Of a stretch of 64,000 bases of DNA, positions 8,228 to 42,795 are shown in pieces (within the stretch, counting starts at the first letter, position 1; each line of letters opens with the position of its first letter). This stretch comes from Halosimplex salinum (GTDB lineage Archaea; Halobacteriota; Halobacteria; Halobacteriales; Haloarculaceae). Made by a program: the position numbers and the translations under genes. The stretch lies in contig NZ_QWGG01000001.1 of the NCBI RefSeq assembly GCF_003730195.1, positions 992,001-1,056,000 on the forward strand, in the 5' to 3' direction. The notes below the pieces were generated by a model. That model had not been told where the DNA came from. It saw only the letters and a list, made by a program, of their open reading frames with translations, and searched no databases.

Positions 8228-8986
8228 ATGACTACAGTCGCCGTGCTCGTCCGTCCGCCGGAGTCCGGGACCGTCCTGCCGACACTCGTCGACGCCGGTG
8301 CGGTGACCGCCGACGAGGCGCGCGACCTCTACGCGGCGATGGTTCGGGACACGTGCGCCGCCGTCGAATCCAGCGGCGGCGACCTACTCGTCAACTATCG
8401 ACCCGTCCACGCCGAGGACGAGACCGAAGCCACGGAGGACGAGGAAGCGCTCGACGCCGTCCGCTCTCTCCTCGACGGCGCGCTCGCCAACCCCGATAGC
8501 CACCGCTACGAGGTGCAGGTCGGATCGTCACTCTCTGCTCGCGTCGGCAACACCGTCACGCATCTCCTCGAACGCGAGGCAGTCAAGAGCGCGGCGGTCG
8601 TGCGCCCGACCGCGGCACTGCTGGAGCGTCGACACGTCGACAGCGCGGCGATGAAGCTCCGGCAGTCGGAGGTCGTCCTCGGTCCGGCGACCGACGGACT
8701 CGTCTCCTACGCGGCGTTCACGGAGCCGATCGACTTCGAGGACGCGTTCACGTCGCCCGAGGTGGAGACGCTGACCGACCGCGCGGTCGACGCGGGGCTG
8801 AGCGTCGATTTCCTCGAGATGCACCCGGTCGCCGAGACCGCGGGCGGACTCGCGACGCTCGTCTCGCAGATCCGAGCGCGACAGCGCGCGGACCTCCGCG
8901 TACCGCCGTACACCACCGCCGTCGTCGAGGACCTCGGGCTGCGAGCGACGGCGGTCGACGGCCATTTCGACGTCGGGCGGGACTGA
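8228..8986 (+). CDS. DUF2064-like protein (GT-A/nucleotide-diphospho-sugar transferase fold)
   Basis: Encodes 252 aa. The layout recalls DUF2064 (the TIGR04282 glycosyltransferase-like group): an N-terminal strand TTVAVLVRPP, a helix DLYAAMVRDTCAAVE, a strand LLVNYRP, then SEVVLGPATDGLVSYAAF, which matches the GPA-x-DGG-x-Y region of that family. The usual second glycine after the Asp is Leu here, so catalytic competence is uncertain. Cytoplasmic, with no membrane segment. Its TGA stop lies inside the first ACTGAGCGA unit of the hairpin array that follows, so the repeat forms its 3' end. Confidence 0.6.
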   Translation: MTTVAVLVRPPESGTVLPTLVDAGAVTADEARDLYAAMVRDTCAAVESSGGDLLVNYRPVHAEDETEATEDEEALDAVRSLLDGALANPDSHRYEVQVGSSLSARVGNTVTHLLEREAVKSAAVVRPTAALLERRHVDSAAMKLRQSEVVLGPATDGLVSYAAFTEPIDFEDAFTSPEVETLTDRAVDAGLSVDFLEMHPVAETAGGLATLVSQIRARQRADLRVPPYTTAVVEDLGLRATAVDGHFDVGRD

Positions 8987-9188
8987 GCGAAGCCGCAGGC
9001 TTCGCGAGGGTCGAGAGACGAACGGAGTGAGTCTCTCGGGACTGAGCGATGGCGTAGCCATCGCGATGGTCGCGAGGCGCGAAGCGCCTCGCGGAACTGA
9101 GCGACGACGGAGTCGTCGCGAGGGTTGCGGGACGCGAAGCGTCCCGCTGGACTGAGCGAAGCCGCAGTCGTATCTCGTAACTGAGCGA
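8982..9188 (+). repeat. tandem array of covarying hairpins spaced by ACTGAGCGA
   Basis: ACTGAGCGA recurs at 8982, 9041, 9096, 9151 and 9180 (spacings 59, 55, 55 and 29). The first three units each hold two palindromes. First type: GCGAAGCC/GGCTTCGC around gca (8987-9005), GCGATGGC/GCCATCGC around gta (9046-9064), GCGACGAC/GTCGTCGC around gga (9101-9119). Second type: GAGAGAC/GTCTCTC around an 11-nt loop (9013-9037), GCGAGGCGC/GCGCCTCGC around gaa (9072-9092), GCGGGACGC/GCGTCCCGC around gaa (9127-9147). Stem sequences differ between units but pairing is kept. The array begins at the stop codon of the upstream gene and ends about 40 nt before tRNA-Ser. Confidence 0.9.
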
Positions 9189-9228
9189 CCGACAGGTCTT
9201 AGGGCGGACGGGCGGTACGCTCGAACGC

Positions 9229-9312
9229 GGTGGGATAGCGAAGTGGCCTAACGCGCCTGCCTTGAGAGCAGGTGTCCTCACGGACCCAGGGGTTCGAATC
9301 CCCTTCCCACCG
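9229..9312 (+). tRNA. tRNA-Ser(UGA)
   Basis: An 84-nt class II tRNA read by eye. The acceptor stem is GGTGGGA (9229-9235) paired with TCCCACC (9305-9311), discriminator G9312. The anticodon stem-loop is CCTGC-CTTGAGA-GCAGG with anticodon TGA. There is a long variable arm, and the T arm is AGGGG-TTCGAAT-CCCCT (9288-9304). No CCA is encoded and no intron is seen. G at position 73 and the long variable arm both agree with serine identity. It reads UCA and related Ser codons. Confidence 0.95.
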
Positions 9313-9475
9313 TCTTCTGTCGCGACCGACCCGGCGAGCACCGCGTCGCGTGTGCTCGCGAACGGTCCGCGGGTCGTGGACAGACCGACAGGTGCCGACA
9401 CCCGAGAAACCTGCAACGAACTCGCTCGCAGGCCGAAACAGTACCGAAATGCCGCGCTCGCGTAGGTTCGTTTTC

Positions 9476-35493: not shown

Positions 35494-35720
35494 CACCGCG
35501 AGCGCGCCGCAAGCGCGTCTCGGTTGGCCCGTGAGTCGAGCGAACGGGGCCACGTCAGAGCTTTGCTCTGACGCTTTTTTGGTCCAGATTTTTTGGCCGA
35601 TGGTGCCCGCAGTGAGCGCGAGGTCGACCGAAGGGAGACCTCGATACGAACGGGGAGCGGAGCGACCCGTGAGCGGAGCGAACGAGGACACCGGAGGCGA
35701 AAAAAGGTGGTAGCGGGGTG
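35494..35720 (+). mobile_element. hairpin-rich insert between two copies of the gyrA 3' end
   Basis: The 227 nt after the gyrA stop have no credible gene. They hold at least four palindromes: GGCCCGT/ACGGgGCC around an 11-nt loop (35526-35551, one bulged G), CGTCAGAGC/GCTCTGACG followed by six T (35553-35580), CGAGGTC/GACCTCG around gaccgaaggga (35619-35643) and ACGGG/CCCGT around gagcggagcga (35650-35670). A further loop-like GAGCGGAGCGA is at 35671. Because the block is flanked by two gyrA 3' ends, I read it as an inserted element, but no transposase or clear terminal repeats are seen. Confidence 0.55.
35553..35580 (+). terminator. perfect 9-bp hairpin with T6 tract after gyrA
   Basis: CGTCAGAGC (35553-35561), loop TTT, GCTCTGACG (35565-35573), then C and six T (35575-35580). 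A second six-T run follows at 35589-35594. T tracts terminate archaeal transcription, so this is a probable terminator of the gyrBA message. The same stem recurs at 42690-42709. Confidence 0.7.
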
Positions 35721-42689: not shown

Positions 42690-42795
42690 CGTCAGAGCAA
42701 GCTCTGACGATGTGTCGTTCGCTCCGCTCACGACACAGGCCGCATCTCGGCCTTCGGCCTCGATGCGGTCAACCGCGCTCGCTTCGCTCGCGCGG
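42690..42795 (+). repeat. run of four hairpins with the 11-nt loop family
   Basis: In order: CGTCAGAGC-aa-GCTCTGACG (42690-42709), the same stem as the gyrA terminator; GTGTCGT/ACGACAC around tcgctccgctc (42712-42736); CGCATC/GATGCG enclosing GGCC-ttc-GGCC (42741-42767); CCGCGC/GCGCGG around tcgcttcgctc (42773-42795). The two 11-nt loops are the reverse complements of gagcggagcga and gagcgaagcga, so the block is in inverse orientation to the one after gyrA. Confidence 0.85.

Follow-up and report, generated by a model that had tools for sequence, protein, structure and literature searches.

Stacked double-hairpin units between a DUF2064 gene and tRNA-Ser(UGA) in Halosimplex salinum, probably mobile elements of a dispersed haloarchaeal family

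The Locus and Its Array

The window analyzed here is a stretch of 64,000 nucleotides from Halosimplex salinum (contig NZ_QWGG01000001.1, positions 992,001 to 1,056,000). Within it, a gene for a DUF2064 protein is followed by a gene for tRNA-Ser(UGA), and between these two lies a head-to-tail array of hairpin-forming units. The features are as follows.

8228 to 8986, plus strand: DUF2064 protein gene (252 aa; PF09837), ending ...GRD-TGA; its GGGACTGA terminus is the putative insertion target
8979 to 8982, plus strand: left GGGA junction, read from the sequence as the host target; uninterrupted CGGGACTGACCGACA in the congener G004 and at locus L154
8983 to 9041, plus strand: unit 1 (59 bp), with CTGA, hairpin 1 (8987-9005), a linker, hairpin 2 (9012-9038) and a GGGA end
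9042 to 9096, plus strand: unit 2 (55 bp), with hairpin 1 (9046-9064), hairpin 2 (9071-9093) and a GGAA end
9097 to 9151, plus strand: unit 3 (55 bp), with hairpin 1 (9101-9119), hairpin 2 (9127-9147) and a TGGA end
9152 to 9180, plus strand: unit 4, truncated; of hairpin 1 it keeps the 5' arm and the loop (CTGAGCGAAGCCGCAG, the same in unit 1), and TCGTATCTCGTAA follows; a direct repeat
9181 to 9188, plus strand: CTGAGCGA of the fifth 9-mer, which is right host flank and not unit; the relative G006 reads CTGACCGA
9189 to 9203, plus strand: CCGACAGGTCTTAGG, promoter-like element (BRE/TATA) of tRNA-Ser, adjoining the array and outside it
9228 to 9314, plus strand: tRNA-Ser(UGA), also matched by Rfam

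The 9-mer ACTGAGCGA marks the array. It occurs five times (starts 8982, 9041, 9096, 9151 and 9180; spacings 59, 55, 55 and 29, just as the original prediction had them), and the plus strand of the window holds no further copy. These copies were thought to delimit units of two hairpins each. This is so for the three complete units of 55-59 bp; the fourth unit is truncated, and the fifth copy is host flank with one base altered (ACTGAGCGACCGACAGGTCTTAGG here versus ACTGACCGACCGACAGGTCTTAGG in G006). The first hairpins of units 1 to 3 are, as described, perfect 8-bp stems with 3-nt loops. The second hairpins have 9-10 bp in units 2 and 3, and 8-9 bp with a long loop in unit 1. Folding the array, a check suggested with the prediction, gives z = -5.8 as RNA and z = -5.9 as DNA.

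Elsewhere in the window, two hairpins with an identical stem (CGTCAGAGC...GCTCTGACG) lie about 7 kb apart, at 35553-35573 and 42690-42709.

The Same Site in Relatives

The history of the array can be approached through the same intergene in eight Halosimplex genomes. Here, no unit is found in G004 or G005, while G003, G006 and G007 each have one. G002 holds a broken unit, G001 an unrelated hairpin, and the genome under study (G000) three units plus the truncated one. The array is, therefore, not static, and the suggestion of a growing repeat, for which a comparison of copy number had been proposed, is supported by this variation at an orthologous site.

Relatives that lack units keep the gene order, and their DUF2064 gene ends in the same GGGACTGA/GGGAGTGA terminus. 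In other genera of the family, where the DUF2064/tRNA-Ser order is often kept, the uninterrupted site reads GGGACTGACCGACA, with the TGA stop already there. Some of these unit-free sites, L137 and L154 among them, read GGGA(C/G)TGACCGACA and then continue into the promoter-like motif of the tRNA. This, in turn, implies that stop codon and promoter motif came first, and that the units were inserted between them later. Thus, the first unit does not supply the stop codon of the upstream gene, as had been supposed. Loss is conceivable for the unit-free sites of G004 and G005; the outgroup genera favor insertion. The element CCGACAGGTCTTAGG is itself retained in most congeners and in other genera, with units present or absent, and probably serves as the promoter of tRNA-Ser.

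A Dispersed Family Associated with tRNA T-Arms

A covariance model (R1) built from five copies scores the complete units at 78.2, 80.8 and 80.6 bits, respectively, and detects both orthologous and dispersed copies, down to E = 4e-20. The genome has about 13 good copies at eight loci, six of them no more than 400 bp from a tRNA (chance 6e-12) and two at the ends of protein genes. Among 40 genomes of relatives, 24 have matches; of 194 haloarchaeal genomes, 75 do, from 35 of 65 genera. In a phylum-wide sample, every match fell within the same order.

Seventy-two distinct copies were read together with their flanks. The consensus is GGGA|(C/G)TGAGCGA-hairpin1-GAnGGTC-hairpin2-GGGA|, 55-63 bp long and starting GGGA|CTGAGCGA. 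The left end is GGGA in 58 of the 72, a figure that is partly model-driven; the right end is GGGA in 43 and GGAA in 13. Beyond the right end, and outside the model, 46 of the 72 copies run into tRNA T-loop sequence (TTYGAAC). Where a copy is associated with a tRNA, its left flank usually matches the acceptor end of that neighboring tRNA. Together, these flanks place the element within a copied tRNA 3' end, at the TCCC of the T-arm. The element is antisense to the tRNA in every case examined. The T-arm of the nearest tRNA carries GGGA in nearly all cases examined, against 16 of the 30 tRNAs of the genome itself; tRNAs with other T-arms likewise have trailing copies.

A longer form is found at tRNA-Ala, tRNA-Arg and tRNA-Gly. 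Here, the acceptor end of the tRNA itself forms the arms of hairpin 2, which leaves the tRNA gene whole and puts the partial copy beyond the element. Many of these tRNA-spanning copies have the tRNA 3' end as a direct repeat on both sides (about 9-13 nt plus GGGA), a repeat that is missing at gene ends and in short copies.

Trailing copies are a wider phenomenon. Behind many tRNA genes of haloarchaea stand tandem cassettes of 85-150 nt, each ending in the last 18-28 nt of the same tRNA (L178-L207 and L232-L251; for example, L232, L182 and L190). By a strict test, 12 of the 30 tRNAs of this genome have such copies, and more do if interrupted copies are counted. The hairpin modules of the cassettes recur, each with inverted T-arm sequence at its borders (GGGATTTGAACC...GGTTCAAATCCC), and are common to different tRNAs and species. 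A module of the type seen behind other tRNAs (TTCTGTCGCGAC...GCGAGCACCGCGTCGCGTGTGCTCGC) also follows tRNA-Ser in the window, at 9315-9383, without a trailing tRNA copy.

Stems: DNA or RNA

Compensatory change between neighboring copies was part of the original prediction, and it extends to the family. All 17 stem pairs show double-sided changes among the aligned copies, and 96.4% of the cells are paired, in an alignment that was fitted to the model and so leans towards structure. Of the non-Watson-Crick cells, about 27 of 80 are G-T for the elements versus 36 of 41 for the tRNA stems of the same loci, a control that required mostly standard pairs and somewhat favors G-U. The share in the elements, about a third, is roughly that expected from unselected mutation. 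Covariation without a preference for G-T fits folding as DNA, or recopying of one arm from the other, better than it fits selection on RNA, and it points to hairpins that act as DNA. A structured RNA family was also considered and set aside; G-T is not favored, and the only Rfam match above the gathering score is the tRNA.

Insertion and Growth of the Array

In two further pairs of empty and filled sites, one unit has been inserted cleanly next to GGGA (TCCC on the opposite strand). In a copy of the tRNA-Asp 3' end, G003 has an empty site, ...GGTTCAAATCCC-GCCTCGGGCG (L233), whereas a closely similar cassette in this genome (L232) carries a 57-bp insertion at TCCC|GCC, with a second TCCC at its end. 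At another protein-gene end, a unit is present in G002 and absent from G003, G004 and G007. The GGGA on both sides may reflect either duplication of a 4-bp target or a tetranucleotide at which both ends are cleaved; the junctions within the array read GGGA, GGAA and TGGA.

How, then, did one unit become several? Unit 1 scores 39 against copies from elsewhere in this genome or from a different genome, versus 28 and 26 against its neighbors in the array. Unit 3 scores 37 against copies elsewhere, versus 31 and 26 against its neighbors, and unit 2 ties at 31. Because the units resemble distant copies at least as well as they resemble each other, repeated insertion is the probable way in which the array grew. 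Insertion at a regenerated GGGACTGA junction would fit better than local duplication, and an old tandem duplication followed by divergence is less well supported.

Interpretation

The array is best read as stacked mobile DNA elements, non-coding and belonging to one dispersed haloarchaeal family, a reading to which we assign a probability of about 0.75. An element would insert next to the tetranucleotide GGGA (TCCC on the opposite strand) and leave GGGA on both sides, and so present the same junction to the next element. Its usual target would be the T-arm TCCC in the copies of tRNA 3' ends found behind tRNA genes. At the locus described here, the target would instead be GGGACTGA at the DUF2064 stop, and different members of the family would have entered it on at least three occasions. 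The idea of a recombination landing site beside a tRNA is thus half right: the family does enter tRNA T-arms, but the target here appears to be at a gene end. Speaking against mobile elements, the copies are far more diverged than is typical of active ones. For the host, no function of the array is evident; at most, it spaces the 3' end of the upstream gene from the tRNA promoter.

The elements would presumably move in the form of folded single-stranded DNA, with an enzyme acting in trans to cut it. The leading guess, a tentative one that falls somewhat short of an even bet, is an enzyme of the IS200/IS605 (HUH, Y1) type. The guess is drawn by analogy from the fixed tetranucleotide at both ends, the hairpins near the ends, the lack of terminal inverted repeats, the single orientation and the head-to-tail stacking, set against the account of such transposition in PMC6006769 and PMC3119063. 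A search of 20 Y1 transposase (Y1_Tnp) loci with R1 found no convincing ends of this type; the best match (27.7 bits, at L172) lacks GGGA ends, and the others are weak. In G005 and G027, elements are present and Y1_Tnp was not detected.

Replication provides another way to multiply palindromes. Template switching or slippage at the hairpins might spread the units without any transposase, recopying the arms as it does so. This would suit the stems well, since nearly all changes are double-sided, one-sided intermediates are few and G-T is not favored; recopying of arms also accounts for double changes, and no enzyme was found among the Y1_Tnp loci. As the source of the array, however, replication error is unlikely. 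It does not account for units scattered over numerous loci and species, for a GGGA junction that is nearly constant, for the confinement to T-arms with TCCC, or for the clean single-unit insertions distant from any donor. It may, of course, still be the cause of stem evolution after insertion. Rather more doubtful is the view that the units are cassettes of a haloarchaeal SNJ2-type tyrosine integrase, which puts small circles at tRNA 3' ends, with the hairpins as inverted-repeat core sites. The att sites of SNJ2-type integrases, about 13 bp in length, lie at tRNA 3' ends (PMC8371274), and the copies at tRNA-Ala, tRNA-Arg and tRNA-Gly are indeed flanked on either side by roughly the final 14 nt of the tRNA. 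Where units lie at protein-gene ends or within tRNA copies, however, the two sides have only GGGA (or GGGACTGA) in common, which is too short for the core of a tyrosine recombinase, and the head-to-tail elements have no long core.

Strong hairpins between a stop codon and a tRNA promoter invite a functional reading as well, namely as a 5'-leader regulator of tRNA-Ser (one of the original suggestions), an insulator or a terminator held by selection. We consider this very improbable, as the array is missing in two congeners and in other genera with identical gene order, the conserved promoter-like CGACAGGTCTTAG lies outside it, no T-run stands behind the hairpins, most of the family is found elsewhere, and Rfam reports the tRNA only. 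As for chance, or a background driven by base composition, the genome is GC-rich, and the window holds 41 perfect hairpins of at least 8 bp versus 10-32 in shuffles. Yet the 216 nt of the array hold five perfect hairpins of at least 8 bp with 3-nt loops, and five copies of the 9-mer, where none of 5000 dinucleotide shuffles gives more than one of either. With copies found down to E = 4e-20 by a five-copy model, and with dispersal and copy-number variation already refuting it, this background explanation retains next to no probability.

Relation to Known Systems

Gene-less palindromic repeats are, of course, already known from bacteria and from Haloquadratum. Mitochondrial hairpin-forming and double-hairpin repeats (e.g., PMC2800124), too, are gene-less and invade intergenic regions, and they may resemble the units here. 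They are organellar and have no known relation to the units.

The nearest described systems are the PATEs (palindrome-associated transposable elements) of Haloquadratum walsbyi and the terminal-only 52-bp remnants of IS605 in that species (PMC3119063). By that account, PATEs are, like the units, haloarchaeal and non-coding, with palindromes near both ends and no terminal inverted repeats; their shortest forms are about 50 bp, and strain comparison shows them to be mobile. The units share with PATEs and IS200/IS605-type elements the palindromes near both termini, the lack of terminal inverted repeats, a size that excludes a transposase, and a fixed short target next to one end (GGGA, with which the empty sites agree). 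PATE ends, however, are related to the ends of IS605 transposons in the same account (PMC3119063), whereas ends matching those of the units were not found on a transposase-bearing element at the 20 Y1_Tnp loci. Targeting of T-arms and hairpins that carry tRNA sequence are unreported for PATEs in the accessible text of PMC3119063. The units have both, plus compensated variation of the stems, and these three traits are what is new relative to PATEs and IS605 remnants.

The small mobile repeats SMR-A and SMR-B of Haloquadratum (80-110 bp; PMC3119063) are likewise non-coding, with a strong target preference in SMR-A and with an enzyme that is likewise unassigned; they show no target duplication. 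Unlike the units, they have terminal inverted repeats, and they target PATEs, IS605 and other mobile elements. The REP/BIME/REPIN sequences and their RAYT (TnpA-REP) enzymes offer short intergenic hairpins, double-hairpin forms, tandem stacking and a tetranucleotide foot (PMC6006769; PMC3733652). The foot of the units is CTGA/GGGA, not GTAG/CGTC, and their copy number is low (about 13). Archaeal TnpA is reported to be of subclass 1.1 (IS200-type) only, with no TnpA-REP (PMC6006769), and the units were not assigned to the REP/RAYT group. Casposon-like insertion involves a 14-15-bp target duplication and a casposase (Cas1) in trans; here, repeats of ~14 nt occur in the tRNA-spanning copies only.

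The literature on haloarchaeal palindromic, partial-tRNA and double-hairpin repeats, as covered by a mostly open-access collection, yielded no description of the family, PATEs and SMRs being nearest. We give roughly even odds that the elements form an undescribed haloarchaeal class: gene-less, two-hairpin and mobile, entering beside TCCC in the T-arm, either of a tRNA gene or of the copies that trail it, sometimes restoring the invaded tRNA through an acceptor-end hairpin, and occasionally stacking at stop codons. If this is true, a minimal mobile element would have become fitted to a safe site in compact genomes, homing on T-arms, maintaining its stems by compensated DNA changes and able to spare the tRNA that it invades. 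The family also goes some way towards accounting for the long runs of partial tRNA copies that follow haloarchaeal tRNA genes, and its clean empty and filled sites give a starting point for an enzyme search.

A Second Array

A second array of three head-to-tail units lies at another protein-gene end in the same genome (L016, G000:C21:274591-274771). The sequence past the end of that gene diverges widely among congeners. Downstream of the same gene in G004 (L209) and G002 (L214), the final stretch of the coding end is duplicated some 150-200 nt away, around other hairpins, as if gene tails, like tRNA ends, were also being copied.
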